A stretch of 64,000 bases of DNA from Owenia fusiformis (lineage: Eukaryota > Annelida > Polychaeta > Sabellida > Oweniidae). The position numbers and the translations under genes are program-made. Numbering within the stretch: the stretch's first letter is position 1; each line of letters opens with the position of its first letter. The notes below the pieces were generated by a model. It was not told the origin of the DNA and did not search any database. It saw only the letters and a program-made list of their open reading frames with translations. Below are positions 4,468 through 58,600 of the stretch, one piece after another. The stretch is from positions 2,995,525 to 3,059,524 of the forward strand of contig CAIIXF020000004.1 of NCBI GenBank assembly GCA_903813345.2, given 5' to 3'.

Positions 4468-7400
4468 GTTATTGGGCCACTTGATGATGGAGAAGCATTC
4501 AATCTTGAAGATTTTAACCTGCTAGAAAAATTCACAGTTTCTTCATCTGCTGGAAAAATAAAAGAGAAAATTGCTGATATGCCAGACTCACTAAAAATGT
4601 AAGTTTTGAAAATCTCTTCTCACTTTGAATTTGAAATTTTGGGAGAAACTGGCACAGTCTTTCATTCATGAAGGTAGGCCTATCTGCATTCAGGGAATGG
4701 AGTCAGATTGGCCAAGAAGAAACAGTGTTTTGGCTTAATTGTTAGTTGTGGGCCTTTTACATGCTGTTTGTTCTGACATTATGCACGGACACTGACCAAT
4801 TCGAACCTTAGCTTTGTTTGGATGCATGGAAATTAAAAGACCTTGATATATGAACCGACTCACATAAATTCTTCAGACTCAACGTTTATTGTCCAATAAT
4901 GTCCAGTAAGTATTGGGATTCATCTATTTAATATCAGATGATGAAAAATCAAGCATGACATCTATAAATGAGACATCTAAAATAAGAAAATGATGAAAAT
5001 CATAAGGTATACCTTTGTACATACCAAATTGTAAAAGTTGGAATTACCATGAAAGACCAAGAAATCAACATGAGAGCCCACAGAATGTTGCTATTTTTGG
5101 CTCACATGGACAGGCTATGGTCTATGGAATAACCCACTATTCTTCCTTCCATCTGTCTATTCATCTGTCTATCTGTCAACAAGTTTTGTACAAATGAAAA
5201 CTGCCATTCATCTGAACAAATTCACCATTCAAAGGTTTGTAAAGCCTTGTTTACACTGACCAGTCTTTTTCACTGGACTTTTTAAGTCCTCTTGAGGTCT
5301 TTGATGACCGAAAGTCTCTTTTCCCGATACCCCAATGTGTCATCCTTAGACCTGTGGAGTCGTTCAAGTCCGATGAAATCCCCTTGGATCCTGTGACATC
5401 ATGCATGAAGGCCTCTTTTTCCATGGAAATATCACTCGATCAGACTTTGAACAGAAAAAGACCAACTAAGACCTTTGAAAGAATGGAACTTCTCCCCTTG
5501 GAAATATCATGATGCAGGGCATAAAAAAGTCAGTGTTAACGGGGCATTGGTGCACCCTATGTACAATCTTAGAGGAAGAGCAAGATAAATTTATATACAT
5601 ATTTTTTTATTTTCAGAGGGAGTGACCTCCTTATGAAAACAGCTGCCCTTCTGAGCTCAGTTCCCCAGAAAGAAGGACGAAAATCAATACAATATGACTC
5701 CGACCAATATAGGTAAATAAAGCTATTTGCTGGTTATATGCAATGTAGCTGATTTACACCCCAGTCACATTTCCTGCGGCCGCCGTGCGGTCTATCATTT
5801 CTGCGGCCAGTTGCTTTTCTACGCTCGCCGTAGAATTTCTGCGCTCTCATACTTTTGCAGTTACATTTCCCACGGCAGCCGCACGTTGAATTTTAAATTT
5901 CTGTTGATAAATAATACTTTTTTTCATTTTATTTACATCAGGACAACTTATAAATGTTATTCATAGTGCTAGGATGTAATATCAAATGAAAAGTGATCGT
6001 GAAACATTGACAAATAATGATTCAATCTTGTTGAGCCAGTTGATTTCTACGGGGACCTCAGAAATGAACAAATATTATAACTCCGAGTTATAATTTCTAC
6101 GGCGACCCTGCGGCCTGTAAAAAACCGGATACGCCGTACAGAGGCCGCAAGGCGAGCGTAGTTTTTCTACGCTCACTGCAGAAATTCACCGATTTAATTG
6201 ATCTGCGGCCGACTTGTGGCCGCCGTGCGACAAATGTGACTGGGGTGTTAGCAAGGATCCGATCATTAAGGAACTAGGCCTATTAAAAGTTCAGGGTTAG
6301 TGGTTGTTAAGTGACAATGATTATATCAAAATACAGTATAACATTTTGTTTTCACCAGAATAAATTTTTCCAATAAACCCTGTCACCTTTTGGAAGAAGC
6401 TATGATATATTGGCTAAATTGGTGATGTCATAGGTTGTAGGTAGCAATATGTCCTAGCAAAAATAGGATTAACGTATCGCTAATTTTGAAAAGGTGGAGC
6501 CAATGGCATCATCAATCAAGCCAAATAGACCTTTTCATAAACCCTGTCACCTTTTGGTACATCACTGAAGCTAGGATATATTGGCTAAATTGGTTGCAAT
6601 GTAGTTTTCAAAAATACCAATGTGTAATGCAGTAGGTCTGTAAGTTTAGCCTATTTTTGATTGGACCAATTGCCACCTACAACCAATGACATCATCAATC
6701 TTGCCATAGATAGATATTTTGACATACCAAAATGTTGCGTTGATTTAAAGTTTATTAAAAAGGTCTATTGTCTGTTGTTTTTAGAAGTTTTGCATGTTGA
6801 ATATAAATAAATAATTTATATATTGTGTCTTCCTTTATTTTGTCACTACCAGAAGTGGTGACATATTGTTATGGCTGTGTCTGGTGTTGATGTTCAGCAT
6901 TTGGTGTCTGTAACAGCGGTTGGCATCTGTAACAAATGGCAGGTGGTGACATTTTGCATGTTAATGCTTTGTTTTGTCTGTTGTAAAAAACTGTTTTGAT
7001 ACCCCAGTTATTGTGTATTTATTTCACTGTTATAAAGATAGAGGGTGAAAAACTGTTTTGAAACCCCTGTTATTGTGCATTTATTTCAGTGTTATAAAGA
7101 TAGAGGGGGACACTGAAACTCCTTCCTATGACCTAGTTGCTATAATTGATCCTGCTAGTCGAGGAGCACAAAAAATCACTCCACTTCTTATGGTAAGTCT
7201 TAATTCTTGTAATAAATTTTATTGTTTGCTTCTTGAATATCATGGTACTTTTTATTTTTGAAGAAGAATAATGTTACTAAAACAAGTGTCTTTAATAATA
7301 TTGGACTTACATTTGACTTATATTTGATATGAAAAAGATTAATGTACATGAAGTTAGTGTGGAAAAGTTGGTTTTTCAACATGTATTTTCCTGCCATATC

Positions 7401-10400
7401 TTCAAGAATTAATACCGGTATATTAACAGCTATTAAATATTAAATAATAACAGTTATACAATAAAATGTGTGAGAAGGTTAATATATTATGATCATGTAC
7501 ATGTACGAGTATATATTATTACACAAAAAGAACACATACTGGTATCATTTATAAACAGCTATGAAATATTAAATAATAACGTGCCACAGTTTCACATTTT
7601 TATGTTGTACAGTTTAATATTACAATAATTTATTTATGTCTGCCAATATACAATAAAATTTGTGAGAAGGTTAATAACTTAATATATTATGACAATGTTT
7701 ATTATTATACAAAAAGAACACATACCGGTATCATTCATTCAGCATAACATTTTTTCAATCTTGGCATATAGGGCTATATGTTTTATAGAAGTACATCTGT
7801 TCCACTCTCGTAAAGAAATAACCAGATCCTGATCTTTCATAAGGAACTGCACTGAATGTATACTGGTGTAATATTTTAGAAGCACATTAACTATACCATT
7901 AGGTTTTATAAAAAAAATCTCAAGTTTCAGACCACAAGTTTCAAGTTTTGTATAGTCTATTCTCTATACTTGTAGCATGTAGGTGAACTCCAGTGCCACT
8001 CTCTAAGAATTCTATCAAGATCTAGTGTTTTCAGTGCAACAAATATAAATTTTAATCAATCTTACTCTTCTCTATACTTATAAGTGAACACCTCTGCTGA
8101 TCCAAAAAGGACTTGAGTACCACTCACTAATTCTCCTTGATTGTTCACTGCAACTGCATTTGGAGTTTGCAACCCTGGTAGACTCCTTTCTTTGAGAGAT
8201 ATACCATTTTGAGTCAGAACATAAATATTAGTGCCAGCAATGAATATATGTCCAAGGCTGTCAACACAAACACTGCTTATCATTTCCATATCACCTCCTT
8301 TATAGCAGAAAACCTCTTCACCCTGTTTGTCAATACATGTAACATTTTGTTCATGTGCAACAACAATGTTATTATTTGGAGCAACTGCAATGCTCTGGAC
8401 CTCTTCAACACTTTCGTAGAATCTTTTATTTACAATCTCACCGGTTTGGATATCCAAGTAACATAGCTTACCAGGTTCACTATTGAATAGTATCTCATTT
8501 GGGTTAGTAAATGTCATTGATTTGGGTGATCCTGGTATTCGTATGTCTTTTGTGTGTTCCCCATTGATTTGAAACAATTTCACAGTCACATTGTTCTTTT
8601 CACCACACGCTACAGCGATGAGGTCATCTTTAGCTGCAACACTTAACACATCTTTTTCTACCAGTGTTTTCTTGGTCTTCCAGTTTGGATCACACAACAA
8701 GGCTATTTCTTTTGATGTAATCATCTTCGATTGTTTCTTCACCTCCAACAGAATGTCATCATTTTTAAGGAACTCAATTTTGTGAATTGTTTTTACATTC
8801 TGCAGTGTCTTTTCCTTTATTAACTTAATCTTTGCTAAGAGTTTAGCATCACCTTCTGGAAATTGGACAGCATTTTTATATGTGATTTTCTGTTTGGCTA
8901 CAGTTGGGTTTGTTTCTTTTGGATCTGAGCGTGCAGCAACTACCGAGTTATAGCCAGGTGGTAGCTCAATACTTGCAGCTGCATTAGGGGGAACATGATA
9001 GGGAGAGGAATATGCTTGTGAAGAATTTGGTGGGGAATAAGGGGGAGGTTGGGAGGGAGAAGAGTATGCTTGGCTAGCACTTGGAAGGACATTAGGGGGA
9101 GGTTGGTAGGGAGAGGAATATGCTTGAGGAGCACTTGGCGGAGCACTAGGAGGCATTTGGTAAGGAGAGGAATATGACTGATAAGCACTTGGTGTGGTAC
9201 CAGGGGGAGGTTGGTAGGGAGAGGAATATGCCTGAGGAGCACTTGTTGGGGCATTTGGGGGAAGTTTGTGGGGAGATGAATAACCTTGCGAACCTTGTGA
9301 TGGGGAATAAGGAGATGTATTGATAGAGGAACACTCTTGAGCTTCCAATTCCTTTTGCTTTGCAGTTGATGTTTGTGTTTCATTTGGCTCATCAGTTGGA
9401 CATTTTTGGAGGAGTGCTTCCACATTTCTTAAGATTTCTCTCAGTGTTTCCCCATCAGTCTGGGAAATTTCATAGGCTCGATTACCGTCTATGTTATTAG
9501 CCAATTGCATATAATACTTTGTTTGGTCTAAAATATTCCCCCATAACTCTTTCTCAATTTTCTTGACGAGAAACCCATAGTCTTCTCTGAGTAAATTAAC
9601 AAATGCATTGAATGTATTAACTGATTGAGTTTCGAAACAATCTATGAATTCCTTACACTGCTTTCGTGCAGAGGACCTTGCTAGGATCTTATCCTTCATT
9701 GAGTTTGTAATAATGTTTTCTTGAGAGCACATGTCCATTAATTGCTGCATATCAAGTGTGTCTGTCATTATAGATTTACATGCTTTAAGTGCACTGATAT
9801 GAGCACTTGTCAGAGGTGCTTCTTCTGTGTACCCTGTGGCCATTTTGGTTAGTTTCTAATGTTCCGAGAATATAAGGTTATTTACTGTTTCATCTATAAT
9901 GGATCTTCCTTACCCAGCCAGTGAGTTTTGCCCAACAATGCTATGGACTAGACTTTTGATGGATTTAATTTGATTAAAGGCTTCCACAATATCAGTTATG
10001 GTTATGATTTACAGTACCTGAGAAACCAAACCTGAGATGGATAAGTGATTTAATTACCCCGCCTAACTGTCTATATTTCACAGCCCTCTTGATTTGGCTT
10101 AGTAATGTTTGTAAGATATAGGTTAATAGTTAAATTGATATATAGAATGTCATTACATAATCGATGTCCAAATCCTTCACTATTTTAGAGTAGCAGGCCT
10201 GTAGTCATCTGGTAGCAGAGTATCCTCTATCATACATCGCATGTCCTTTTTCTGTAAATACAACATCGAACACTTTCATTTTCATATTTTTATGGTCATT
10301 TATAAGTTTCCCTCCGTTTAATATGACTGCATACATGCAGAATTTCACATAACTGACCTTGACATAACTCTTACCTTCATAATTCATATTAACAGCATCC

Positions 10401-13400
10401 AGATTTTCATAAGATCAAGAAAGTTATTCATCTTATAATTTTCAAATACTTGAACTTCCCGCTATTTTAGAAACAACATTTAGATTTTCAGATCAACAGA
10501 TATAACACCTAACACTGTTAACACAATTTTTGAATTGAAATGAATTCACAATTTGGTTTACACTTTAAACAGGGACCTTTAAATCTTATCTTACGATGTA
10601 CTTATTGTATTATGACCACAAACACTGGATATAGTTTTAAAACAGTAATTTCAGGAATCAGGATTTATGGGACAACAATCATATAAAATAATATTCTACC
10701 TAAAAATATTGACTTAAATTAAAAAAGTGAGGACTTAACTAAAAGGATCAACAGTTACTGATATCTATTATCTCAGAGACATATAAAACATGTTTGTCTG
10801 ATTATCTATACACTGTGACTAAGTTGAATTCTTCACTTACATTAAGCAAAGCTGTGGCAGAGTCACTGGATCAGCTACAGGTTCTCCTTTCTTAAACTGC
10901 GGTTCTGAAAAATGGAATGATAACAGTTATAACAGGGGGGAGGGGGGGGGGGGGGGGGGGTTCGATGGGGTCGGACCAAAATTGTCAAACTTGGCAAATC
11001 CTGGCTCAAGCCTGTCTTACATACCTTAGATATATCTTGAGACTAACTTATAGGTGGTGTCCCATTTAATAATTGCTTATATACTCGAGTATCTAGCCAA
11101 TTCTTGGCTAGAAGTAATTTCATTTGGAACACCGTGAATAATTTGAAAAAAGCTGGCCATCGTGTTATAAATTTATTTAATATTTTAAAAATCGCCAGAT
11201 AAATTTATCATGAATTAAAATGGAACTGGCTGGGCCCCTTGATGAGATATTGCATGATTTTTTAAGGATTTCGTCTAAAATTAAAATGAACGGCTCCAAA
11301 AAATGGCGATATTCGAAAAACTGGACAAAAAGTCGTTATTGTCTGACATTAGTAACCGGCTGTAAATTGTAAGTTGGCGATCCAGAAGATGTGAACTAAT
11401 ACATTGATCACTTCATGTGTGTTTTGGAATTTTTGTTGAGGTAATAAGACCAAAACTCGCAATTCAAATTGTGATGTGGAAAAATGGCGCACATTTGATT
11501 TCAAATTTTATGATTACGACATGACCAGTATATGTAGTAAAAAACATGCAGGGATTTATCTTTGGAAGAAGGCCACGATATAGAGGCCTTAGAAGAAGGT
11601 AGGCACAAAGAATCAGAAAACTCAGCGCACACCTTGACCTAGGCAACCAATCAGGTTCAAAACCAATTTCTTTTAGAATTTCCAGAACTGTACACAGCTA
11701 GTCTAGACAATATTGATTGACAAATTTAACAACAGTTTTATTAGAGACAATTCATTTCGTAAACAGAATGTATTTAATATTAGTATCCATGTATTGTGGT
11801 TGTAAATCGCAAAAACATCGGGAAATCATGAATTAGTAAGCCAGCCAGCCTTTGAAGGTAAGCCAGATCATTGGTAGTACAATGGCTGATTTTTCTGCTC
11901 AAAATATTTATTGAGCTACTACTGATATAAAAAGAAATAAAATGAACAATTTCAAAACTGAGTCCACGAAAGAAGCAAAATGTATTATCTAGACACAGAA
12001 AATAATGCATCTGGAAGCGGGAATCGAACTCGGTATCATGTGCATAGTAGCCTGGGACACTAACCACTATGTATCAGTAAACGATACAAACGACAGTGAA
12101 ACCTTAGTTTATAAGTACAGTTCGGGACAAAAGTAAATGACAGGTCGATTTTCGATCACCATTTCCTAATTATGGTGGTCTGAAAGCCCATAATTTCCAA
12201 TATTGTCTAGATACATATCCCTTAAAATTTGTATATTTTACATTTTGTATAATCTCATCCACTGATGTATGGCCTCTTGTAAATTCTCTTATTTTTAACA
12301 TGGGAAATCCTCACTTCAGCAAATCCACCTGTCATTTATTTATGTCCCCAACTGTACTGTAATTTCCCGTCCTAGGCAGACATTGCCTGTATGACAGTAC
12401 AGTGTGTCTATTTTTTAAAATGTTGGTCCTCTATCTTGCCCTACTAGGAGACAATAGAGTGACAACAATTGTCGGTACCCAAGCAAATACGAAATCAATG
12501 AAGTTACATCTAGCTGTAAGCTAGAGACTCGGGTAGGGTGAATGTGGTACTCAAAAATTATGCAAATAAGTTAGACTAGTCCAGTTTCAAACTGAGTTTG
12601 GATAATTTTCTGATTTGTTTTGTCAAACTAAAGTGTAATAAAATAAAGTATACCTTTCGATCGTGTGTGTCAACACTACTTTGAACAGCATCATGGTGTC
12701 GTCATCTTCTGATTTAATTTATTTTTGACTACAGGACTAAAATGTTGAAAAACGATAAAATCATAAATTTTTATTTTAGATAACATCCGGGAGCTACCCA
12801 GATTTGCAGCAGAATTACGAACGAGTGCTGAAATTCTGACTGTGTTATTGATTTTTAGTAAAACTCAGTTTATTGTCTTTTGTATTTGCAGGTTTTACAA
12901 GAGGTGGTAAATGCTGACATCAAAGTTATGTTTAACTGTAAAGATCAGCTGTCAGAAATGCCACTTAAAAGGTAATTTTTTGAGAACCCAGCAAATAAAA
13001 GTGTATCGAAATTGTTCGGTAATTCACCATTAGGCCTAGGTGGAAATAGTGATGAACCCGGAAGTAAGTTCTTAGCCAATATTTTGTGCCAATATCATTC
13101 GAAATACAAATCTATGCGTCCGGAAAAAATCATTAATAAATAGATATTATATTTTATCAATCAATACCTGTTAATAAGAATCACATCTGATCAATTTGTT
13201 TATAGTTTTAAAATTGTCAGTAGCATTCAGCAAGTCCATTATGGTCTAGTGGTTAGGATTCCTGGCTTTCACCCAGGCGGCCCGGGTTCGATTCCCGGTA
13301 ATGGAATGCTCATTTTTTTCTTTTTTATTTTATTTATAATACTCTAATGTTTTTTTCTTTCATGTACTAAATATTTTTATCGCACTTTGAAAAAGTGCTA

Positions 13401-16400
13401 TATTGTCGTCGTCTTGTGCTGCTGGGCGGGCGTACGGGCGTGCGGGCGGGCGGCACATAAAACCAAATCTTGTCATCAAATTTCCAGGATAACTGCTTAC
13501 CTGTTCAACTTGAAATTTTTACAGATGCAAGAGCAGACTAGTACCAAGATCTGATTAGGTTCAGGGCATGCTGGGTAAACTACGTGGCGGCCATTTTGAA
13601 TTTTTCAACAAATCTTGTCATCAAAATTCCAGGAAAACCACTTATCCGTTCAACTTGAAATTTTTACAGATGCAAGAGCAGACTATTGCCAAGATCTGAT
13701 TAGGTTTTGGGTATGCTGGCTGAATTACATGGTGGCCATTTTGAATTTTTCAATTTGGCGGCCATTTTGAATTTTTCAACTTGCTCCAAATTGACCAAAT
13801 TTTTTTTTTAAAAACATCTACAAGTTCTCAGAAGTTCAAATCTGACCTTAGATTTCAGATTTGACCTTTCATTCACCTTCAGTGACCTTGAAAAGGTCAA
13901 AAAAGTTGATTTTCTAAATTGATATTTTGGATTTAAATTTAGGTCAGCTTAATTACAAAACACCTACTGAGGTCTGAAAAAGTGAAATTTTCAAGGTCGA
14001 AGGTCAAGGTCATTAAACTAGGTCACAAATGATGTTATCCAAGTTTCTCAAAGTTTGAGACTACAAATCATTTCTTGTCATCAAAATTCCAAGAAAATCG
14101 CTAACCTGTTCAACTTGAAATTTTTACACATGCAATAGCAGACTAGTGCCAAGATCTGATTAGGTTTAGGGCATGCTGGGTAAACTACGTGGCGGCCATT
14201 TTGAATTTTTCAACAAATCTTGTCATCAAAATTCCAGGAAAACCACTTATCCGTTCAACTTGAAATTTTTACAGATGCAAGAGCAGACTATTGCCAAGAT
14301 CTGATTAGGTTTTGGGTATGCTGGCTGAATTACATGGTGGCCATTTTGAATTTTTCAATTTGGCGGCCATTTTGAATTTTTCAACTTGCTCCAAATTGAC
14401 CAAATTTTTTTTTTAAAAACATCTACAAGTTCTCAGAAGTTCAAATCTGACCTTAGATTTCAGATTTGACCTTTCGTTGACCTTCAGTGACCTTGAAAAG
14501 GTCAAAAATTTGATTTTCTAAATTGATATTTTGGATTTAAATTTAGGTCAGCTTAACTACAAAAGACCTACTGAGGTCTGAAAAAGTGAAATTTTCAAGG
14601 TCGAAGGTCATCAAATTAGGTCACAAACAATGTTATCTAAATTTTCCCAAAGTTCAAGACTACAAATAAATTCTTGTCATCAAAATTGCAGGAAAACTGC
14701 TAACCTTGTCAACTTGAAATGTTTACAGATGCAAGAGCAGACTAGTGCCAAGGTCTGATTAGGTTTTGGCCATGCTGGGTAAATTGCATGGTGGCCAGTT
14801 TGCTCTTCAAAGTGCGATATTTATCACTGTGTGTCTTGTTACTCTTATAAATCTTATGCTAGGATATATATTTTTCAGTTTTTACCGATTAGTCCTGGAG
14901 CCTGAGCTGGCCTTCGCATCTGATGGAGTATTATCTAGTGGTCCTGTAGCAAAATTCAACAAAATGCCATCCAGCCCAATTCTCACTTTGAATATGAACC
15001 CACCCGAGGGTTGGTTAGTGGAGGCGACTAGATCTCCATATGATTTAGATAATATTCATTTGGAGGAGGTGGAAAGTAATGGAATACATGGGGAGTTTGA
15101 ATTGGAGTATCTCTTATTAGAAGGTAAACCCAAAATAATTACAGTAAAACCATCTAAGTGGAACACCTCGGGAGGTGTTCCACTTATAGAGGTGTATTTA
15201 ACAAAAGTCAGTTAGTCTTGGGACTCTGAAAAGTGTTCTATAAAGATCTCACCACAGATTTAACTGTGCTACTCTTTGAAAATTTTATGATATCTAGTTT
15301 GATATTATATTTTGCAAACACACAGCTTCTAAATCTAAAAATTTAATCATGAAAATAGTTCACATTATCATTATCACATTACAATCACATTGATAATCAG
15401 TCTCATCATGATGAATATATCATATAAGTGCTGATATTGGAATTGTTCAAATTGAGGAGTATTTTCAATACAGAGATGTTCACATTTGAGAGCTAGGTGT
15501 TCATATTAAACAGTTGTTCACCTTTGAGATACATAGGAAAAGTTTGAGGTGTTTAGGGAATATAACTTAAGTGTTCGCTTTATTAAAGGAAGTGTTCACC
15601 TTGATTGAGAAGTGTTCCCAATAGAGAGGTGTTCACAATATAGTGAGGTGTATAGAATTACATAAACATTATCTTATTTATAGGATTTTCATGAGGAGTG
15701 GCAATGAAATGATGTGAGTGGAAATATTGAGAAACTTACTCATAAGCCATATCTGACCATTTTACGTCCTTGCTTTAATGCATATTATTTCTGTTTCAGG
15801 CCATTGCTTTGACTCTAGCTCAGGCCAGCCCCCAAGGGGACTACAATTCACACTGGGGACAAACAGTACTGCTTTGGTGCTTTAATGCACATTATTTCTG
15901 TTTCAGGCCATTGCTTTGACTCTAGCTCAGGCCAGCCCCCAAGGGGATTACAATTCACACTGGGGACAAACAGTACTTCTTTGGTGCTTTAATGCACATT
16001 ATTTCTGTTTCAGGCCATTGCTTTGACTCTAGCTCAGGCCAGCCCCCGAGGGGATTACAATTCACACTGGGAACAAACACTACTGCTTTGGTGCTTTAAT
16101 GCACATTATTTCTGTTTCAGGCCATTGCTTTGACTCTAGCTCAGGCCAGCCCCCGAGGGGATTACAATTCACACTGGGAACAAACACTACTGCTTTGGTG
16201 CTTTAATGCACATTATTTCTGTTTCAGGCCATTGCTTTGACTCTAGCTCAGGCCAGCCCCCGAGGGGATTACAATTCACACTGGGAACAAACACTACTGC
16301 TTTGGTGGACACTATAGTCATGGCTAATCTGGTAAGTTAACAGCATGGGATTGTGAGTAATGGACCCTGATATCCCCAAATGATGCTTGAAACAGCCTTG

Positions 16401-19400
16401 CCCAAGTCAGTCTCTTTTACTTATTTTGATTTCTATTATGACCGCCGGTAATAATTCAAGATCAGATAAGTAAAAAATACTGACTTGGGCAAGGCTATAT
16501 TGAAACTACCAGATTGAATCTAGTCTATTTCAAATAGCTGTTTAAACCCAGCTAGATCAGACCAGATCCCACTTTTTCGGAACCACTCTTAGCTTATAGC
16601 ACTGTTAACTTAATAGATAATTGAACCCAGAGTTAAGGGCTAAAGCACCAAATGAAGAATGTACAGGGTGTCCCGAAAGTATGGGCCCCCCCCCTAGGCA
16701 GACATACACCAATGTCCCCATAGTATGTGTCATATGTAATTTTAAAGCTTGTCCAAAGTTACATTGATTTGCCAAGTATCATGGTTCAACTCACAAATGG
16801 GAAAAAGTTACACACATTTCAAAATGTAGTGTTTTACCAAAATTAAAGTTTAGTTTTACACAAGATTAATAGTCGGCGTGTCTCCCATGGCCATGTTAAC
16901 AGCAGCATTTCCTTCCAGATATGACCTTAAATGCACTTCAAATAAGGGTATGGCATTTTATAATCCTCATAAAACCTTTTTAAGGCATTTTCGAAGAGTT
17001 TCCTTGGAGCATCTGCCCTTACCAACCTCTTTTTACAACTCAATATCCATCCTCTCTTTGATGATAGCACCCATTTTTTGGTCACATTCAGGTTAGCGGT
17101 GTTTCCTGGATACTGATTTTAACTTTAATTTTGGCCATACACTAAGTTTTGAAATGCCTGTAACTTTTTCCCATTTGTAAGTTGAAGGATGATACTTGGC
17201 AAATCAATGTAACTTTGGATAAGCTTTAAAATGATATATGACACATACTATGGGGACATTGGTGTATGTCTGTCTAGGGGGGCCCCATACTTTCGGGACA
17301 CCCTGTACATGTATTTGTACCCGATTTAGAATTTTGAAAATTGTTCAAAGTTTTGCAACAAGTTGTGAAAGAATTCTAGGAGAAATTAGAGAGAAAGTGT
17401 GATTATTATGTTATAATTGCACCATCTTTATTTACAGGGATATTTCCAACTCAAGGCAAATCCTGGTGCGTGGTATTTGAAACTTAGAGGGGGCCGATCG
17501 GCAGAAATATATGACATCACAAATCATGAATTTACGGACTCTCCATCCAATTCACCAGAAATAATTGTCGTTATGGACAGTTTTAAAAGTAAAATAGTTA
17601 AAGTTAAAGTAGCTAAGAAGCCAGAAATGGCGGGAGTGGATTTGTTGAGTGATGAAAAAGTCGGAAGTGGCGGAATCTGGGATTCCATCTCAAGGTAAAT
17701 TATATTCATCAGAAATACGATTTTCTGGAAATCTAAGATGAAAATAGAGTCAGTATATTTGAAAAAGTTGGACACATGGCTGTGAATTGGTATGATCCCA
17801 GGATAGATCTAGATAAAGTTTGTCATAGTAATGATGCATTGTGGGATTAATTTTGGAATTTATCCCAACATCTTTGGTGAATTCAAATAATCGTGAAGAA
17901 TGATTCTTATGCTAATTTCAATCCACCTACATAGGTGAATTAATTTTGGATAAAATTTATCCGAATTCCAATGTATCCCCCCCCCCCCGAATCCTAGGAT
18001 CATACCAATGTAGCAAATATTTATCTTGATCACTAGAAAAAAAAATTTAACCTAAAAGATTGACAGAGTAGTATTAGAACGGAGTTATTAATATAGAAAT
18101 GGTTAATTATAACACAGAATGAAATCCTGGGCTTGTGTGAAAAAGTCTCTCCACCCAGATCAAACCCAGGATGCCTTTATTTTTCGGGCGAATGCTCTTC
18201 TCTACTTGCATATCATTTGTTTGTATTACATTCTTTTGATTGCAGTCAATTCAGTGGAACTGAAGGAAGTGAGAGTAAAGATGAAGTTATAAATATTTTC
18301 TCTGTAGCATCAGGTCATCTTTATGAACGTTTATTAAGGTAAGTCATCTCTGTAAATATTTGTTAACCTTATAGCGCAGTCAGATGTCCCTTTGGTAGTT
18401 CGACTTTTTCAGGAAAGCAACAAACTTGGCACAGTTGTAGAAACATATGATCTGAATGAAAAATGATTTTGGGGCAAGTGATTCGGGATGGTCTTCATGG
18501 ATTGTAAGCCTCTGACCCCCACCCCTATCAGGCGGGGAGGGGGTACATTATAATAAAATAAATAAAAATAGTTGTAATGTATATTTCTTTAAATGACTTC
18601 ATTTGGTGATTGCTTTGAGCCTTGAAATTGAGAAAAATCTATTTTAGAAGTGGTGTTTAGGAAGGAAAATACATTTTAACCCAATTATCTAGCGTGAATT
18701 CATCTTTCAAAGGGTCAAATATGGGACATCAAGTACTGTATTTCAAGAATGTGATGTCTGATCATCCTGAAAAAATTCATACTAATAGAGATATAGGGGT
18801 TAATCACTCATATGATATATGGCTTGTGTAGCTCATGTAATTTTTGAGAAATAAATTATTGAAATATGGATATTTAAGCCCTTGCGGCCTAGGGGTGACC
18901 TTATTTTACCTTAATAATTTTTTAGATACGCAATGTTTGGGTCTCATATGAATTCCAAATGTTGCATTAAGTATTGTTTTGTCATATTATTCCTAATTAA
19001 ATGTAAAAAATTATTGGAAATTAAAAAAAAAATCAAATTTTCATTTTCGGTTCTAAAGGGCCAGGGGTAACCATATTTTACCCTAATAATTTCCCAGATA
19101 TGTAATATATGCATCTCAAATTAGCTCAAGATGTTGCATATAGTTCTGTTTTATCATACATCTTCCAATAAGATGTAGAAAATGATCGGATATATCTAAA
19201 AAATCAAAATTTTCACTTAAGCTCTTGATGGCCCTGGGGTTTACCTTATTTTACCTTAATAATTTTCTAAATATGAGACATAGTCACCTCAAATGAGCTT
19301 AAGATGGTATATTTAGTCCTGTTTTATCATATCATTCTCAAGGAGTGAAAAAATGATTGGAAATTATAAGAAAATGACATTTTCATATTACACCCCCAAT

Positions 19401-22400
19401 CCGCAACATCTTCTTGCAGCGCTGTAAACAGTACTGAACAGTGCAGTCAGAGTACTGCACTATATAGCAATGTACAATGCTATTCTAACACCATCTGTTT
19501 TGGACAGCGTAGTACAGTACTGTTTTTACAGCTCAGTACTGTTTTAGAAAACAGCTGTGTTCAGTACTGTTTTTACAGCACTGTTTATGAAACCATGCTG
19601 TTTGATGCAGTTTGAGATTGGTAGTGTAGTTTATGATAGGTCAGGAATGACCCAATTTTACCTTAAAAATTTAAACAAAGATATATCATATTGTCTACTC
19701 AAATGAGCTCAAAATAGTGAATATAGTCTAGTTTTGTCATATTATTGCTACTGAGATATACAATAATGATTAACAATTATAATAAAAAATGAACCTCAAC
19801 AGCCATTTATTCCTTTTAAGTACCATGGGCTCTGCGCTGATAGAGCCCACGTTAGTACCAATGGCAATACTATCTAGTTTTATAGAACATTTTCTAAGAT
19901 ATGAAAATGTTTGATAAGTCCAGTTCATACTCGCACGAGTAGTAGCATTGTTAAGATTCTGTATATTATCATTTGAGTATATAATCCAAATCTATAAAAC
20001 CTAATCAAAGGAGTCACAATTTATGGATTCTGACAGTCTCTCCTACAGCTACATAGCAAATCAGATCTGCTTTCAAACATTTGCATCTGTTCTCTTGACA
20101 CAGGTATCTACCCCATGACCTACATTTTATGTTGTGGCCTCAGTATCAGCAGTGGGAGTAGTCCAGCCACATTCATGTGGTGATAGAAACTGTGGGTAAG
20201 AATGCATCAGTATGAATAAGGACTCTAGTCTTCTAATTTTAGGGTATCAAAAAAGATTTAAAGCTTAAGAACACTTGCGTAACCTCTGGGTACACCTTCT
20301 ATTCCTGCAAATCAGTTGACTAAGAGTAGTAGCAGAATGCATCTGGCGATTGTATGAAAAATGGTAAGGGCTAAACTTCGTTCATGGCCAAGTGGCCTTG
20401 AAATATCTAAGGCAGGTCGTACATACTGGAGGAATTTCCCCTCAACATAGGCCATATGCTATCCAAATTGACATTTTCAGCACAAGTTACTGCCAGTTTA
20501 AACCTCATCAAAATCGACTGTATTGACTATGATTCTTATTAGGTCATGACAGAAGCAGTCTTTGGCATGCTTCTTCATATGAGCGAATGGTGATGGCAGA
20601 TACTTCACTATCGGGCTAAGATATTGCATTACTTCATTGTGAGGTCACCATCTTCTTGCCGTCTTCCTCCAGGGTTTCAGTTTTGATGCCTGGAAGGAAA
20701 ACAGCTCCCTCTTGTTCCAACTATCTTAGGAAATCTTGCCAATTCCACAGAAGAAAATTAGTAGGATATACTTTCCTCACTGTTCCAGTTTTGTGCTGTT
20801 TGTATCTATGCTCATTAACATCAAAGTTGAATGACTAAGCTACATAGTAGATGCCAAAATAATAGACAGGGCATGTAAAGTTAAACATGCTAACAGTGAA
20901 ATATAAAGAAAATTTGGTGATTATGCAAATATGATATTACCTACGTAAAAGTCTGCAAATAGTTCATTGCCTTGATGTCAGCTGGGATGTTTACAAGGAC
21001 ACTAGCTTAAAGGGGCAACAAGGTCTGTAGAAGATTCAATTTTTTACTTTTTCTGAGCTATAAGGGCAATATTTGGCTTTGACATACCTATTTTCTTAAA
21101 ATGTATGGATAAACTATCAATTTCAGCATTAAGAAGTGTAAATTCAGTTCAAAGCTTCTATAAAGGGAGTCCCACTTATAGGTTTTTAAGATCCAAAACA
21201 TTTCAAGAGGAATCAGCTGAAATAATGTTCATCCAGGGGATTTCTTTGGAAAAAAATAAACATATATGTTAGTCTTGATGAAATATCAAAACTTGAATAT
21301 ATTTTGACACTGGTCCATGATCGTTGAATGGCCCCTTTGCACTAATTGTTGCACCTTTAAAACAGCACTAGAGAGACTTGTGGAACTGGAACAAGGATAG
21401 TCTAAGGAGGAAACTGAAACCCTTGAAATGGATGGAAAGAAGATAGTGACCACATAAATTAAGGAGGCAATGGAATGTTTTAGCCCAACAGTGAGGTTCT
21501 GCCATCACCCTTGCTCTTATAAGAAGAAGCAGATTCAAGGATATTTCTCAATATTTTCAGTTAGACTGCTTCAATCATGGCCTTCAAGAGAAAGAATAAT
21601 ACTTCTTACATTTAATTCTGATGTGATTATCCTGGCATATATGTGATGTTAAAAAACTAAAAAAGTCAATTTGGATAGCATATGGTAAGGGAGAAAACAT
21701 ATCAATATCTACCTGCCCATGACCAAAGTTTAATCCTCCCCATTTCTCATACAATCATTGGATGTGATGTTACATCTGTATTCTACTGCTATGGAAAAAT
21801 GGCATAAAAGGATTGAGATTTAAATGTGTCACTGAATTTTCTAATTGTTGTTAATCATTATCTCAGTAGGAATAAAGTGAAAAACAGACTATTTTCCCCA
21901 TTTTGAGATCATTTTATCTTGAAAATTATTGTGATAACATTTGGCATTCTTGTGCCCAATCATTGACTGTCATTATTCACTGACAGAATCCTTGACAGAA
22001 GCAGCTCACATTTACCACTTGTGCACGCATTTACCACTTGTTCCTTCAAGCTCGCTGATTGGCTGAGAATAGGTCAGCATGGTTTATTGCAGCTTGGGTC
22101 ATAAATGCTCTAAGACCCAAGCTGCCAATGGCATCGGTCATGGGGACGGGGCTGCTAAACTCACTCCATTCTTTGCTTCTATATTATGGTAATACATGTA
22201 TATGATAAAATCACCCCTGACCTGTCAAAAGCTAAAAATGTAATTTTTCAAATTTCCATTATTTTTTACATCTCCTAAGGAATATTATGACAAAACAAGA
22301 GTATATGACACAATTCTAAGCTCATTTGAGATGCATACGTCTCATAATTAAGAAAAGTTCAAGGTTAAATAAGCCCCCCCCCAGGCCATCATAAGCTAAA

Positions 22401-38290: not shown

Positions 38291-38299
38291 GTTGATTCC

Positions 38300-38440: not shown

Positions 38441-38441
38441 T

Positions 38442-40690: not shown

Positions 40691-40699
40691 AAATGTCAT

Positions 40700-40895: not shown

Positions 40896-41399
40896 CAGAA
40901 TATTAAGATGGAACCCTGGGAGCCAACCCTCCTTGACTCTTCTAGATTTTGAATTTTGTGTTCATATACTTTTAAAATCTATTTCAAAGTATAAAAGGTC
41001 TACCTAAATGCAATAATAAAAATGAACCTATATACATTTTATAAGAATATACTACATGTATATATAATTTCCCTCATCCAAAATTAAACAGTAACGTTGA
41101 TTATTTGGCCTTATGTTAGACTTTACGCAATATGACAAATCCTAATTCATAAATTCTTGTGAAGTGACAGTTAAATGTTTCAAACTCCTTTAAAATAACA
41201 TGAGATTTATTGACTACAGATAGATATGAAGAAATGTGGACCCTTTAGGGGACCATGTCAACAGCAAATGTTTGTGGGTCTAAAGTAAAATTTGTTTGGA
41301 ACTACATTTTTGTACTTTGAATCAAGAAAATAAGCAATTAAAGGACCTAATTGAAACAGAATTTGTAAAAATTGAAACATTTATATACATGTCCTTTTT

Positions 41400-42925: not shown

Positions 42926-43137
42926 TGTTCTTGTTGTATATTTTAGTTTGTTTTGTAGTTTAGCTATCATATCTGTGGCCTCTTATATTTTGATGCTTCT
43001 CTGCCATGTTATTTTCGGAAAAATTAACATGGCTGAAACTCCTTAAATTACAAAAGGCCACATTTATTCCTGCACATTATACATAACTATCTGAAATATA
43101 CAAAAGTTAGGACTTATACATATGTTTCCATTTTTAT

Positions 43138-46689: not shown

Positions 46690-46913
46690 GGCATACACAA
46701 CCAATCTGCAACATTACTGTATGATACCGTTTTAGAAATGGTACTGTACGGTACCGTGAAATATGGTATTGTATGGATCATAGACTAAAACGGTACCATA
46801 CGGTACCGTGAACACTGAATGGCACTATACTCTAAGGGTACTGTACAGTACCATACTCTTAATGTACCATACGTTACCGTGACTCTAAAGTGCCGATTGG
46901 GGGTGTGAAAATG
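46690..46913. mobile_element. GGTACCGT palindrome-rich element with CACCCCCAATC end
   Basis: Left CACAACCAATCTGCAACATT, right GTGCCGATTGGGGGTGTG. The interior repeats CGGTACCGTG, TACTGTACAGTACC and similar self-complementary units. The same end type is seen at 19396. Confidence 0.55.
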
Positions 46914-49586: not shown

Positions 49587-49616
49587 TATCCATACCAACA
49601 AGGAGAAACACCAGGC

Positions 49617-52600
49617 ATGGCTCAAGTCGAAGAAGAAACAGAAATTCCCTTCTATGAAGTTCACGAGATTGTAGTTCCTCATCTAGGGCATGTACCCATT
49701 GCAAAAGGTGACTTCCATCGCCTTCCTAAGAAGGTGCAGAAGTTCATCGCATATTACGTAAGTATATTCGTAATTTTGATAAATTTAACAATTTTAAAGT
49801 TTAGAGACCTGGAGGAAATATATGTATTTGTTAGTAAATAAGGGTTATGTACTGGGAGGTTTTGGATATGGGGTTTATCCAGAGGGAGATATGCATATCT
49901 ACCTGAGGGACCGTAGGGACCGAAGTTAGATGTGCATATCTCACGAGGGATGAACCCAATATCCAAACCGACCGTACATAACTGCTTTATCCTATACCAA
50001 GTAGAGTTTTCAGGGGCAGATGGCCATTTCAATAGTACAAGGTGTAAAAATAAACAAATCATTCATATGCAAAGTCATTTTATTGCATTTCCACTACTTA
50101 CCGGAAGCGGGAAGATATGCACTGAAGCGGGAAGATATGCACCGAAGCGGGATATATGGCGGGAGATATGGAGGTTCTGGATATGGAAACCTCAAAATCA
50201 GGATGTGGCATATATCTTACCAACTTATCTCCCTAAAACTCTACTTGGCATAGGATAAATCTGGTTATTTAAACAGTGGATATTCTCTCTAAAAGAACAC
50301 ATTAATTTAGAAAATTACATTTCATATTCTCCAATCAAAAACTTTTAATGAGATACTTTCTATGAATATATAAAACTTTGAAAGGTTTTTGTGAAAACTC
50401 TACATGAATATGAAGGTTTTGCACATTGGCCTATGAATAAAAATTCAATTACTGAGGAATGTGTATTTCCTAGTAGATGAGCCTTAAATACAAAGGCTCA
50501 TCCAGTTGTATAATATCTTTTATAGTGTGATTTGCTGACACCAAGGGGTCTCTATATATGTGATGGTACTGTGAAGGAAGCTGATGAAGTTGTACACAAA
50601 CTTCTAGAAAGAGGAACCCTTGAACCATTAGAGAAACTAGACAACTGGTAACATTTTTAGTTCATTACAATTTATGAATGAATTATGAATGCTTTGATAT
50701 ATCATTTTCAGAATTCTTTTCATCTTTGTTTTGATTTTTTAATTGTATGGCCGCATTTTATCTTTTTCAATTCAGTTTATGTCACAATTATTTCAATGTC
50801 TCGGTTTATGTTACCATTATTTCAATGTCTCAGTTTATGTTACCATTATTTCCATGTCTCAATTTAACTCACCACCAAAAAGTGGTGACATATTGTTATG
50901 ATCTTTGTTGTTTGTGATGGCTGATGGTGAACAGTAGTTGGCGATCGTCATCTGTAACAATATTGTGAGCAACTAGGTGGTGACATTTTGTAAATGACTT
51001 GTACTTCAGTGCTTCAGTGAATTCACTTGTCAACAAAATGGATGGTATTCAAAAACTTTTGAGAAAATAAACTTGATTTGTTTGAGGAAGTAAATGATGA
51101 TTTTGTCAGAGGAAATGTAAACCTGCACATCGCTCCAAAACGAAATATTTTGACATATATTGTTTTTACATTTTCAAGCTCTAAAATGAAGTTTCTGTAA
51201 ATAAAAATTGTTTTTTCTGTGTAATATCAAAGAACAATCACTTAGTAAAAAAAGAAAAAAAGTACATGCGGGATTCGAACCCGGGCCGCCTGCGTGCTTA
51301 GCGAGCATTCTACCGCTGGGCTACCAATTCATTATGAATGGCGAGCGTAATTAAACGCTACTTATTTTGAATGCTATAATTCGGAAGTGACGTCACGTTC
51401 TTAATTTAGAAACCTTCCAAAAATCATATTGTCGTCGACAATCGAAGCAATTCAATGAATAATCGTTGTAATGACACATTTATCGTGAGTATTTATACAC
51501 AAGATTTGCCCCATTTGTTCATCATTCTATAATCTTTCATTAAGCTCAAAATGATAAAGTTCACCCCCGAAACAACCCAAGATTGCGTTTTGGAGCAATG
51601 TGCAGGTTTAATTTTCAAGTGTAATTTAGTCAGCATGTTGTTACATTAGGAGAGGAGGTTGGGGGTTAAAAAAATATTTAAATAAATATTGCTTTTCTAC
51701 AACCTTCAACATTTGGACACATTGGTTCCAGTTACACAAGAGGATCAATGTTTGGTTACAAAGCTTCATGACAAAGGTGTTACTCAGGGGTCTTTTTTTA
51801 TTTATCAAAAAGAAGTCTTGGTTTTCTTGGAATCACAAGCTTCAACCATACTAAAAATGAACTCTAGGTACATATTCCTTTGTAAGGAAGCTTTCTTGGT
51901 TAAAATTCTTTGTAATGAAGCAATTTATACCCACTGTGTTACATGTACCAACATTTCTACCATCAATCCTATTATCACATTTCAGTTTTATCTGTCGTAC
52001 CGATCCCGCTGATGTTGCGAGAGTAGAGTCTAAAACCTGGATTTCTACCAAACAAAAGCATGATACTGAACCCGACTGCAAAGAAGGAGTCAACACTATA
52101 ATGGCTCACTGGAGGTCACCTGAGGAGGCCAAGAAGGAGACCAGTGAACGCTTCCCAGGATGCATGGCAGGTAGGTCTTTCTTCATACAATTTTGTTCCC
52201 CTCTAGCTAAGGGAGTACAGCTGACTAGAGGTGTCCCTGTCCCTTTCTGATTGGGACGTGAAATGTCGGGCCGGGTCAGAAGAAAATGGAAAAATGAATC
52301 TGACTTAATTGTTAAGTACTAGCAACTGAAATGACCGGGTCATAATACATGGCACATTATAAGGCTGTTTAAGCCTGCATTGCTGCGTATTATTCTTTGA
52401 TAAAATGAAAAATGATAGAAACTTAACATTAAATTGTTCCGGAACAACCATGAATTATTTTCCATTCACAATTTATACAAGAAATAGGCCAGCTAGAAGT
52501 CTGAAATTTCTGTTGGGAATATAAAGCATTTTACAATTGTTTTTGATATTCCTGCTAAGTAGTTGTTTGTGACACAATTGAGCCTTCTGATCAAAGATTC

Positions 52601-55600
52601 CTGTCAACTTGATGTGGGTGTGACAAGTTTACAGTTAACTGACTCTAACTATATACTTATTGATCACCCTTTGTATTTTGTGTTGTAGGACGTATGATGT
52701 ATGTTATACCATTCAGTATGGGACCTATTGGTTCCCCTCTAGCTAAGGTTGGAGTACAGCTTACAGACTCTAACTATATACTTATTGATCACCCTTTGTA
52801 TACTTTTGTGTTGTAGGACGTATGATGTATGTTATACCATTCAGTATGGGTCCCATTGGTTCCCCTCTAGCTAAGGTTGGAGTACAGCTTACAGACTCCA
52901 ATTACGTACTGCTCTGCATGAGGGTGATGGCCCGTGTCAGTGAGAAGGTGATTTATTTATTAATCCACCAAACGATTTGAAGGGTTATAGGGAAGCCATT
53001 AATTTGTTTGTTCATCCATCCATTCGTATGTTCATAATGAAAATGATGCCATCAAACACTATTTTTCAAAGATAAACATACATTCTTTACAAATCTATTT
53101 TCAAACAGTTTTTGATTTTTATAAAAGGCTAATATATGGTTCCAGTTTTGTTTTGGTTAAGTGACTGGATTTGCTTCTTGCCTATTGAAACATCCTATGC
53201 CCAATTTGTATTAAATTTCTTTCAACCGTGTAGGTAATACCATCTATCAATTCAATTCAATTCAAATCCTGTCACCTTTTGATATATCAGAAAAATATGG
53301 GCTATCTAGATGAAAATGTCATTGAAAACTTGAGAATTAGAAAAAGTATGAAAAATGGGCATATTTTGACCAATTTTGGTCTGTATCATGAAAATTAAAA
53401 TCCTGTGGAGAATGCTGAAAGATGTGACCAAATAAACTATTTGGAAATGAACAAATTTTGTTATTTTTTCAGGTATGGGATGCTCTAGGTGACAATGACT
53501 TTGTAAAATGTGTTCATTCTATGGGATGCCCCCGACCATGGAGAAGTAAGTACACTCATTACCTTAAATACACCCCCCAAAAGGCAATCTGATTTTCGAC
53601 GCCGTTTCGGTGCCAAATTTCGCTGTGGTTTCGGCACCAAATGGACTGACTAGTCTGGTGCCAAATTTTGGTATCGATAGGTTTCAGTGCCGGAACGGTG
53701 CCGGAACAAATGGAATTTTTTCGATGCTGAAAAGGCGCCGAATTATATTGCTGGCTGTTTAAATAGAACTCTGAATAGATTTATCCAGTTCAGAAGTCCC
53801 TAAAACCATGATACAAACTTGTGTCAGTGTTAAAATTGTTTTAAGAAAAAATGTGTTTTATTATTACTTTTTACGAACATGCCAGATTTCAGATGCTTGG
53901 ATTTTGCCAAGTTTCACATGCTTGTTTAACATGTTTAGTGAGCTCATTTCACATAAATGCCCATTTCACATGTATGCCAAGTTCCACATGCCTGTTAAAC
54001 ATATCCTTTGAGCCCATTTCACAAGTCTAATCACTTGTACTTACAGAGAAGGTGGTGAACCATTGGCCATGCAACCCTGAGAAAATTCTCATTGCCCATT
54101 TCCCTGAAGAAAGAAAGGTAAGCAGATATGATTATATGTTTGAAGCATGTGCTCCAGAAGCCCCTGTATCAGTTGTCACAAAACAAAACCCCTTCATTTT
54201 ATTATGTAAGAAAAAGAAGTTGCCAAATAATAATTGTGCTTAAACAGTCTTTTTGTTGTACATTTAGTATATGCAGCTAGCCCCTCATTGTATTGTCACA
54301 AAACCCCTTTATATTGTTATGTAGGAAAATGAAGTTGCCAAAAAAAAGTTGTGATGACACTGTCTGGGTAGTGCCATATTGAATTTGGTGTTATGGATCT
54401 ATTTTGCATACTACTTCTCATTATAGGTGAAGTCATATGGCAGTGGCTACGGTGGTAACTCGTTGTTAGGAAAGAAGTGTTTCGCTTTGAGAATCGCCAG
54501 TGTGATCGCTAGAGATGAAGGATGGATGGCTGAACATATGTTGGTAGGTGAAAATGTGTAGGAAAAATGTTAAATGTTAAAGTGGAATTTTGCTAGTAAA
54601 ATTGTTTGTCGAAAGCAAAACCCAAGTGACTGCTTAGTTATGAGAATCTTTGTTTCAAAGCAATGTGATATGCCACATGATTATCAATGTCACATGAATA
54701 TGAATGTCACATGATAATGAATGTCACATGATTATGAATGTCCCATGATTATGAATGTGACATGATTATGAATGTCACATGATTATCAATGTCACATGAT
54801 TAGGAATGTCACATGATTATGAATGTCACATGATTATGAATGTGACATGATTATGAATGTCACATGATTATCAATGTCACATGATTAGGAATGTCAGATG
54901 ATTATCAATGTCACATGATTATCAGTGTCACATGATCATCAATGGCACCATCGTTTTTAAATTGTTTATAAATTGCTAGCACATTGCTCAAATCTGTCAG
55001 TGTTCGTGATTAATTGGGTATTGAGTGTGTGTCTCACAGGCTAATTCAACCAATTTCTACCACGATATATAACCTCTTTCCTCAATTTAATTTTCATTTC
55101 TGATATACTAGAAGGGTAATGTTTTATTCTAAGGTTGATGTAATTACGTCACCACCAAAAAGTGGTGACATATTATTTGTTATGGTGTCTGTTTTTTGTG
55201 ACGGCAGTTAGCGATCGGCGGTTTGCGTCTGTAACAAATGGTGGTGACATTTTGCATTTTAATGCCTTGTTTTGTCTTGTTTTCAGATCATGGGGCTGAC
55301 TGACCCCCAAGGACGTGAACATTACCTAGCTGCAGCTTTCCCCAGTGCTTGCGGAAAAACCAATTTGGCTATGATCAAGCCAGGACTCCCAGGATGGAAG
55401 GTTCTTTGTGTTGGTATGTTATTTGGACAAATGAGTGGTTGCTATGGTGTCTTAATGTTGAAAGTTTCATAAAAATGAATGACATATAACTTCATTATTG
55501 TTGACTCCCACTTCCCCTATATATTATAATAAAAACTGTATTATGTCATTTAACAAAAGATATCATGAATCTGAACATATTAAGTGTTTTTTTTTGCAAT

Positions 55601-58600
55601 TTGCCACTCTTTATCTGCGATAGATAGATAATAATATAATAGGGCATGATAATAACCAGTGTAATAATAGGGCATGATTTACTGAAATATTATTTCACTT
55701 GTAGGTGATGATATTGCATGGATGAAGTTCGATGAAACTGGCCAATTATTTGGTATTAACCCAGAGGCTGGATTTTTCGGAGTCGCTCCTGGAACTAACT
55801 GGAAGACGAACCCTAACGCCATGCACTCCTTCCAAGCGAACACTGTCTTCACAAACATAGCAAAGACAGAAGATGGTGGCTACTATTGGGAAGGTCTAGA
55901 AGATGAACTGCCAAAGGTTTGGAAAATCTTTTTCTTAATGGAGAAGCCCCATAGCTTTTGTCAAGGGAGTTAACTTTTCAAAAAATTTCAGAGGTGTTCA
56001 CATTTGACAACTTTGACTCAAAATCATTTAAAAAGTGCTCAGAATGGTGAATAACTGCATGATTTCGAGAGGCTTTGGCAAGGGGGATTACAGGCCTGAG
56101 CCTGGACGAAAAACATTGTTTCTCTGAATTTTTTCTCTAAATTGCAGTCATTGTTGCTGCACACATACTATAGCTCCATGTTTCTGTAGTTTCACACATC
56201 AGAGCACCTATCAACAGTCAAATCTTCGCAAACTTTACACTGAAGTTTCCAACTAAATTGAAAATGAGAAGTTATTTTAAAATTAGAGAGTTCAGTTTTT
56301 GTCACTGTATGTGTAATACTGAGGGACCAAAAAATGGCAACTTTGTATTTTCCTCACATTTGACCACCCTGTAGGTGCTTCGAAACAGAGTCAAATGTAT
56401 AACTTCAACATGACAAGTTCATTCAAACCATTCAACATTCAAACCATTCAACCATCAAATTAAAACAAATTAAGAAAAGTTGTGTTTTTTTTCATTTTAT
56501 CCCATGTTAATGCTTTAAAAACATCCAACTTTAAAACCAACTCATGGTTTTCACTTTATCCCATGTTAAATCTTTAAAAAACATCCAACTTTAAAACTCT
56601 GTTATATTACAGGACACCAAGATAACTACATGGCGAGGTGAACCATTCAAGATAGGCGATCCAATTAAGGCGGCCCATCCTAACTCACGATTCTGTTGTC
56701 CTGCTGCACAATGTCCCATAATTCATCCCAAGTGGGAGGACCCCAAGGGAGTACCCATTGACGCACTTATCTTCGGTGGAAGGAGACCTGAGGGTATTAC
56801 TATATTATTGATTTTAATGAATTCTAGCATTCAGAATTCTAAATGGGTCTTCTGACAATATTATACATTTTACTCTAAACTTAACTTTTGTAATACTGAA
56901 GAGTAATGAGTTTTTACTCAGAGAGTTGAAATAAGATTAACTTGAAATTCACGCAGTTATGACATGAAGCTGCTCAGATTTTAGGCAATATCAGTTACCA
57001 TGACAATGAATTACATCCATTTTCTCCATTTCTTTATTTCATTTCATATTAATACATGCATATATATCAAATCTGCAGATTATATTTTTTTATTTGCATT
57101 GTTAATTTAACGGAATGATCTCGACACATTCAGGTGTACCATTGGTGTATGAGTCTTTCGACTGGAACCATGGTGTCATGGTTGGCGCACAATTGAAGTC
57201 TGAGACAACCGCAGCTGCAGAGTTCAAAGGTCAGATATTAAGAAATCCTACGTACCTGGAATACTTTTTTTATGACTCTAATTGTCAATTCCAACTGGAC
57301 TTAAATGCATATCATGTGGTTTTAGATTTAAAAAGAAATTGATTGCAGTCAAGACTATACATCTCTGAATCAGTTACATGTTCTGAGTAACTTTTTTATT
57401 GAAATTTATTTATTTTAAAACATTTATACATTACAAATTCTGAGTAACCAGTGGTTTTGTCTTTTCTCAGTAACATGTATTTAGGGTGAGGAATTTTTCA
57501 GCTGCTTTCGGAGATTTTTTTTTTCAAAATAATACTGGCTTGCAAACACAGTCCAACTTAACAGAAAATAACAGTCAGAATATTGTTCAATATTGAAAAA
57601 ATAGGTCTATTCTTGAAGATCTTAATAGAAAAATAGACCTCATTTTGAAAAATAGCACTATATACAGTATTCAACAGTAGACTGCTGAGAGTTTATAACA
57701 ATATTTCCATTTACAGGCAAGAATATCATGCATGACCCAATGGCTATGAGACCTTTCATGGGCTACAACTTTGGGCATTACCTACAGCATTGGCTCAACC
57801 TAAACAAGGCCCCAAATAAAGTAAGTACAGAAAAATCTGCCCAAGTGGAACACCTTCGGTACCTCTTAAAAGTGCTCCACTTGGGAGGTTTTCTACCTAT
57901 TATGGGCTACAACTTTGGCCATTACCTACAACATTGGCTCAACCTCAACAAGGCCCCAAATAAAGTATGTATAGAAAAATCTGCCCAAGTGGAACACCTT
58001 CGGTACCTCTTTAAACTGTGCTCCACTTGGGAGGTATTCTTCTTATAGAGGTTCAATTAATATAAGTCAGTTGATCTTGGGACTCTGAAAAGTGTTCCAC
58101 TAACGAAGGTGTTTGACCTTCCACTTTTCACTGTAATGTTAACAATTTTCTAGATGCCAGTAGGTAGTTGACAGTTTTAGCTAATTTAGGTCAGATTACA
58201 AGGCAAACAATTGCAGAAGAGGAAAATGTTTTCCTCAACTTGAATTTGCAATTGCAAGATTTAGTGGATCAAATAGTCAGCCATCTTGGATGAAGAGTGT
58301 GTATGTTGGAGAGTCCAATTTATTTTTAAAAAAAATTTCTATGAGGTGACCATAGGCTATATGACATTAAAAACAGGAAAACCCTATAAATTAATTATTA
58401 GTCTATGTACATGGCATACTTTTAGGTGCCCAAGATCTTCCACGTAAATTGGTTCCGTGTTGACAAAGAGGGCAAATTCTTGTGGCCAGGATTCGGAGAG
58501 AATGTCCGTGTACTCGACTGGATTTGCAAGAGAGTTCGCGGAGAAGATGTTGCTTTCAAATCACCTATTGGATATATGCCAAAGAAAGGTATAAAAACAA

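Follow-up and report, generated by a model that had tools for sequence, protein, structure and literature searches.

The genome of the annelid Owenia fusiformis contains splice junctions that lie inside local tandem duplications, so that near-identical copies of a splice site stand beside the one in use. These arrays were found in a 64,000-nucleotide stretch of contig CAIIXF020000004.1 (hereafter the window), which carries much of the UGGT and PEPCK genes, both on the + strand, and they recurred in other genes of the same 498-Mb genome: 22 of 351 junctions were spanned across all loci pooled (6.3%; bootstrap over 88 loci 3.7-8.7%). The arrays have the architecture described in amphioxus under the name mirages. 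They can be explained, with a probability of roughly 80%, as minisatellite-like tandem duplications that chanced to span one exon-intron boundary and were often tolerated, the real site being chosen by its position.

Six duplicated junctions in UGGT and PEPCK

Exons were placed by open frame, splice signals, and phase, which yielded 57 junctions, 30 in UGGT and 27 in PEPCK. Of the first PEPCK exon only the donor (49757/49758) was included, and the last modelled PEPCK donor was at 58861. Since the 15 UGGT exons and 13 of the PEPCK exons join into continuous open frames, the junctions could be placed exactly. A junction was counted as spanned when a local direct duplication with a period of 12-600 covered it and reached 8 nt or more to either side.

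Six of the 57 junctions (10.5%) were spanned: the acceptors at 7090, 16228, 30761, and 52817 and the donors at 27127 and 57820 (Table 1). An earlier note on this DNA had reported these six duplications with their periods, and Tandem Repeats Finder (TRF), the raw sequence, and direct comparison bore it out. No local repeat with a score of 14 or more was present in one Markov-shuffled 64-kb copy of the window. In all six arrays the exon-proximal copy continues into the rest of the exon, and that copy alone gives the conserved protein. The repeated unit holds one of the exon's two splice sites, and the duplicated part of the exon, 12-82 nt, is shorter than the exon itself.

The arrays differ in copy number and in the state of their decoys, that is, the extra copies of the splice site. 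At UGGT exon 6, four intact decoy acceptors lie 107, 214, 321, and 428 nt upstream of the functional one. At UGGT exon 3 the functional acceptor reads TTTCAG and the upstream copy has CAC instead of CAG, so that this decoy, judged by its sequence, is already dead. The donor copies at UGGT exon 12 (27116-27320) are of different ages, the 30-bp ladder being recent and the copy about 151 nt downstream more diverged. The 144-bp donor pair of PEPCK was detected by direct comparison, not by TRF; its decoy donor (57964/57965) is in frame and open, and would add 48 residues.

Table 1. Positions of the modelled genes and of the junction arrays in the window
Feature	Positions	Strand	Remarks
62-bp x2 acceptor duplication, UGGT exon 3	6986..7107	+	TRF and raw sequence; functional acceptor 7089/7090
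107-bp x5 acceptor array, UGGT exon 6	15771..16307	+	TRF and raw sequence; functional acceptor 16227/16228
30-bp x3.6 donor ladder, UGGT exon 12	27116..27224	+	TRF and raw sequence; functional donor 27127/27128
76-bp x4 acceptor array, UGGT exon 13	30486..30790	+	TRF and raw sequence; functional acceptor 30760/30761; 3 intact decoys
128-bp x2.1 acceptor duplication, PEPCK exon starting 52817	52630..52898	+	TRF and raw sequence; decoy acceptor 52688/52689
144-bp donor duplication, PEPCK exon 57717-57820	57751..58015 (copies 57751-57871, 57895-58015)	+	functional donor 57820/57821
UGGT gene (part), 15 exons modelled	4468..32191	+	continuous open frame; best PDB match UGGT 6ts2_A, E 1.9e-158
UGGT exons 1-8	4468-4598, 5617-5712, 7090-7192, 12892-12971, 14879-15123, 16228-16331, 17438-17694, 18246-18338	+	
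UGGT exons 9-15	23957-24041, 24505-24614, 26332-26404, 26967-27127, 30761-30875, 31062-31178, 32041-32191	+	last donor less certain
PEPCK (GTP) gene, 14 exons modelled	49757..58861	+	open frame unbroken over 13 exons; best PDB match cytosolic PEPCK 9ej6_A, E 1.1e-204

Junction arrays in other genes

The sample drew on 88 loci in this genome, namely UGGT and PEPCK themselves together with sampled CCT chaperonin and adaptin genes (sample 1) and kinesin and class-I tRNA-synthetase genes (sample 2). Sample 1 used 82 of 98 family matches; the remaining 16 were not within the loci fetched. For sample 2, 96 of 171 matches were chosen by hand, aiming at no internal stop; repeated kinesin copies were omitted, and at least one match with no stop (C6:33674507) was missed. 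The 57 junctions of the window served to train the splice matrix, and exon ends with no good splice score were excluded, 34 of 164 in sample 1 and 31 of 194 in sample 2. The sampled flanks may contain unmodelled exons.

Eight of 130 junctions were spanned in sample 1, where duplications covered 22.5% of 59,292 intron positions and 3.9% of the exon interior. The corresponding figures for sample 2 were 7 of 163 junctions, 10.8% of 83,538 intron or flank positions, and 2.2% of the exon interior. The earlier note had confined the pattern to two unrelated genes, which proved too narrow, as 16 of the 294 junctions outside the window were alike and the window was not significantly different from them (Fisher P = 0.14). 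In the sample, junction duplications are genome-wide and not peculiar to UGGT and PEPCK. Acceptors (14 of 176 spanned) and donors (8 of 175) did not differ significantly (P = 0.27).

The most extreme case was a kinesin gene (L042) in which a 159-bp unit, repeated 17.9 times with a 97% match, puts 17 decoy acceptors and their partial exons ahead of the real acceptor. This array was overlooked by the automatic step and was added by hand. None of its 17 decoys would preserve the frame: 14 would run into a stop and 3 would shift it. The CCT gene L008 carries a donor array in which 24 decoys follow one another every 53 bp, some as far as 2 kb from the functional donor. In the seven cases of sample 2, the extra copies of an acceptor were all upstream of it and those of a donor all downstream. 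On inspection, the exon edges in the 16 sample arrays fit the family frame.

Three other arrays were noted in the sample. The donor at 752 of kinesin L069 has five decoy donors and an acceptor of CCT gene L008, at 7993, has three decoy acceptors, each of which would add in-frame repeats (coding-strand locus coordinates). A 136-bp array of 7.0 copies (99%; L088:813-1765) lies near CCT exons on contig C222; it is possibly another boundary array and was left out of the counts.

Strength and reading frame of the decoy sites

Most decoys were as strong as the sites that they copy. Ninety-nine of 107 score within 0.5 bit of the functional site or above it, and at least one such decoy was found in 17 of the 21 arrays. 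The AG or GT dinucleotide was kept in 110 of 113 decoys, having been lost in UGGT exon 3, in L005, and in one decoy of L008. As the real site cannot be told from the decoys by its sequence, selection among them is presumably by position, probably through exon definition. The decoys appear to be little used, because 92 of the 105 intact ones would shift the frame or introduce a stop. Open in-frame decoys were present in PEPCK, one CCT gene, and two kinesins.

Selection might instead keep the competing copies in order to tune splicing or to route transcripts to decay. This regulatory role has a small probability. The retention of AG or GT in nearly all decoys is compatible with it, as is the finding that none of 112 variant events among the decoys alone fell in the splice dinucleotide, where 2.6 were expected (P = 0.07). 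Once the functional copy was included, however, 2 of 175 events in the 21 arrays fell in the dinucleotide against an expectation of 4.0 (P = 0.23). The arrays also occur in unrelated housekeeping genes at a density below that of introns, and the great majority of intact decoys would break the reading frame. A by-column test of the decoy dinucleotides gave P = 0.05-0.06 against other intron columns and P = 0.15-0.46 against exon columns. Neither faster loss nor conservation of the decoy dinucleotides was demonstrated by whole-unit events over the 21 arrays (P = 0.07-0.23). An initial tally, with 3 of 226 core cells versus 323 of 4859, had looked like conservation, but cells within an array are not independent of one another.

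A broader version of this idea is comparably improbable. Extrapolated from the sample, thousands of splice sites might stand beside decoys of equal strength, part of them kept by selection; the arrays would in that case work as rapidly mutating switches, with productive transcripts on one side and unproductive or lengthened ones on the other.

Coverage of exon edges, exons, and introns

The earlier note had implied that the duplications concentrate on exon edges. In the window, duplications spanned 10.5% of the junctions and 13.1% of 29,106 positions in intron interiors. Circular shifts of the junctions gave a mean of 3.77 spanned junctions in UGGT, where 4 of 30 were observed (P = 0.52), and 3.05 in PEPCK, where 2 of 27 were observed (P = 0.85). 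For a test of random placement, 39 of the 44 TRF rows (the other five overlap these) were merged into 29 arrays. Of these, 21 fall within the spans of the two genes; five of the 21 touch a junction and 3.8 are expected (P = 0.33).

The earlier note had proposed a whole-genome scan for an excess at exon edges; in the 88-locus sample no such excess was found. Pooled over the loci, 29,097 of 198,120 intron or flank positions (14.7%) were spanned, compared with 6.3% of junctions, which is a ratio of 0.43 (bootstrap 0.24-0.67); none of 4000 bootstraps reached 1. The coverage profile of the 88 loci had no peak at the exon edge and instead sloped smoothly from exon to intron: 3.0% at 40-80 nt within the exon, 5.6% at 8-20 nt within it, 6.3% at the edge, 8.0% at 40-80 nt on the intron side, and about 10% at 160-640 nt. 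The place of the junction in the unit was not different from uniform, with an exon share of 9-80% and a mean of 0.496 (Kolmogorov-Smirnov P = 0.30, n = 22). The earlier note probably saw arrays at junctions because it was the junctions that were being read.

These results bear on a mutational hotspot, one of the options raised earlier, in which exon edges would be preferentially duplicated, for example via repair or transcription effects at splice sites. Junctions with many copies, such as that of the kinesin gene, or with copies of different ages, such as UGGT exon 12, would suit it. The position mask, the circular shift, the random placement of TRF arrays, the distance profile, and the place of the junction in the unit all spoke against it, and for this sample an exon-edge hotspot was rejected as highly improbable.

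Assembly error and gain of introns or exons as alternatives

There is little chance that the copies were made or inflated by assembly or polishing. In amphioxus, the copy numbers of the PGBD5 array are reported to vary between assemblies (PMC3902484), and one globin mirage is described as aberrantly assembled in a draft (PMC3087553). In Owenia the copies differ from one another (175 variant events in 21 arrays) and many loci show the pattern, both of which make assembly error an unlikely source; the UGGT exon-6 array, moreover, was found at one place only. No second allele was found: that array was met once, and none of the fetched loci is allelic to the first 14,500 bases of contig C222.

It is just as doubtful that the duplicated boundary copies give an extra intron or exon. 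Duplication across an intron-exon boundary is reported to have given a potato gene a new intron (PMC4974935), and the 144-bp copy in PEPCK is in frame and open, yet in each of the six window arrays the exon-proximal copy by itself suffices for the conserved protein, and the 16 sample exons match their family frame with no added intron.

Probable origin and tolerance of the arrays

The explanation preferred here, chance duplication across a boundary followed by tolerance, would work as follows. Local tandem duplications would arise across the introns of this genome. One that covered an acceptor would give n copies of the intron end and exon start followed by the rest of the exon, and one over a donor would give the mirror image. 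Since only the exon-proximal copy would be continuous with the remaining exon, the original mRNA could still be produced and the change would often be tolerated. Exon definition is the most likely selector among the near-identical sites: the short real exon would be recognised, upstream acceptors and downstream donors would end up within the intron, and only the exon-proximal site would pair with the other exon end over a short distance. In the sampled loci, duplications were common in introns, rarer across exon edges, and rarest in exons. A gradient of this kind would be left by a broad supply of duplications together with selection against damage to the mRNA.

Several observations weigh against this explanation in its simplest form. 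Junctions were spanned at about 0.63 of the rate found 160-640 nt away, as well as at 0.43 of the overall intron or flank rate. Many junction duplications are therefore probably not neutral, or else exon edges are distinct in another respect, and the results do not support equal tolerance of junction and intron duplications. Thirteen of the 105 intact decoys, in four loci including PEPCK, would keep the frame, and longer products from such decoys are possible. At L034 the real acceptor is uncertain, because the acceptor that was taken has a lower score (7.5) than an in-frame AG upstream of it (10.4). Tolerance nevertheless gave the best fit among the four options of the earlier note, which had suggested that splicing hides the duplications.

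If about 6% of junctions carry near-identical copies of their own splice site, they are natural experiments on how the spliceosome chooses between equal sites at set distances. Such a genome would show how far exon definition suffices, what decoys cost, and how often new introns or exons come from arrays. It is also a warning for gene annotators, as intact decoy copies may yield false exons.

Other features of the window

A 113-bp array of 3.9 copies (28339-28775) was considered as a seventh junction array and rejected: it starts inside the intron, about 5 nt past the donor of a minus-strand sulfotransferase-like exon (PF03567, E 3e-6) that is nested in a UGGT intron, and the splice site is not part of it. 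Also nested in a UGGT intron is a 597-aa open frame on the minus strand (8062-9855) with a CARD domain (PF00619, E 1e-8), a coding proline-rich 54-bp repeat of 5.6 copies (8981-9282), and weak beta-propeller matches below cut-offs.

A short palindromic stretch (AAGTGGAACACCT...) occurs just past the donors of PEPCK exon 57717-57820 (at 57836-57890) and UGGT exon 14879-15123 (at 15150-15195); the PEPCK palindrome falls within the 144-bp duplication. A short inverted-repeat element at 16394-16496 has at least about 40 further rows elsewhere in the genome (40 of 969 candidates scored). Tandem arrays of the 20-bp unit GAAGCGGGAAGATATGCACC occur at two unrelated places, 50104-50152 and L087:1979-2053, which suggests that this minisatellite travels in a mobile element. 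Elsewhere in the genome there is a match (E 5e-7) to PF16915, the erythrocruorin-linker family of annelids, in agreement with the annelid host; PF14830, molluscan haemocyanin, had no match in a search whose control was also empty.

Comparison with known systems

Tandem exon duplications, including mutually exclusive exons, are head-to-tail copies of exon sequence inside a gene. The six window units differ in that they carry one splice site, so that a copy is not a complete exon. Intronic minisatellites are similar to the present arrays in array type and period range, and differ in that the arrays described here run across an exon edge. The potato intron gain (PMC4974935) likewise began with a tandem duplication across an intron-exon boundary that supplied spare splice sites, whereas the Owenia arrays need no new intron. 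Apart from that case, among the matches listed in a literature search under mirage-type terms there was no report outside amphioxus, which is not proof of absence.

The earlier note knew of no described system of this kind, and in this it was mistaken, as the mirages of amphioxus (Branchiostoma) share the architecture (PMC3087553, PMC3902484). The first mirage paper was Canestro et al. 2002, cited in these reports. Mirages have been described in the globin genes BflGb6 and BflGb9 and in Adh3, where the units are 10-72 bp (PMC3087553), with PGBD5 (60 and 108 bp) and TnC added later (PMC3902484). According to PMC3087553, reverse-transcription PCR suggests normal splicing, and the mirage copy number of BflGb6 differs between two haplotypes. 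As in Owenia, the amphioxus arrays are described as minisatellite-like units of an intron end and part of an exon, found at 5' or 3' boundaries, in which many, not all, copies keep AG or GT. The amphioxus units are about 10-160 bp and are reported not to disturb splicing.

The architecture had already been described in kind, and its likely mechanism is ordinary. New here are the sampled rate, the negative test for a hotspot, and the extreme case of the kinesin gene, and probably also the occurrence of mirages in another phylum. The Owenia arrays differ from those of amphioxus in their annelid host, in a rate determined over 351 junctions, and in having up to 17-24 extra copies.

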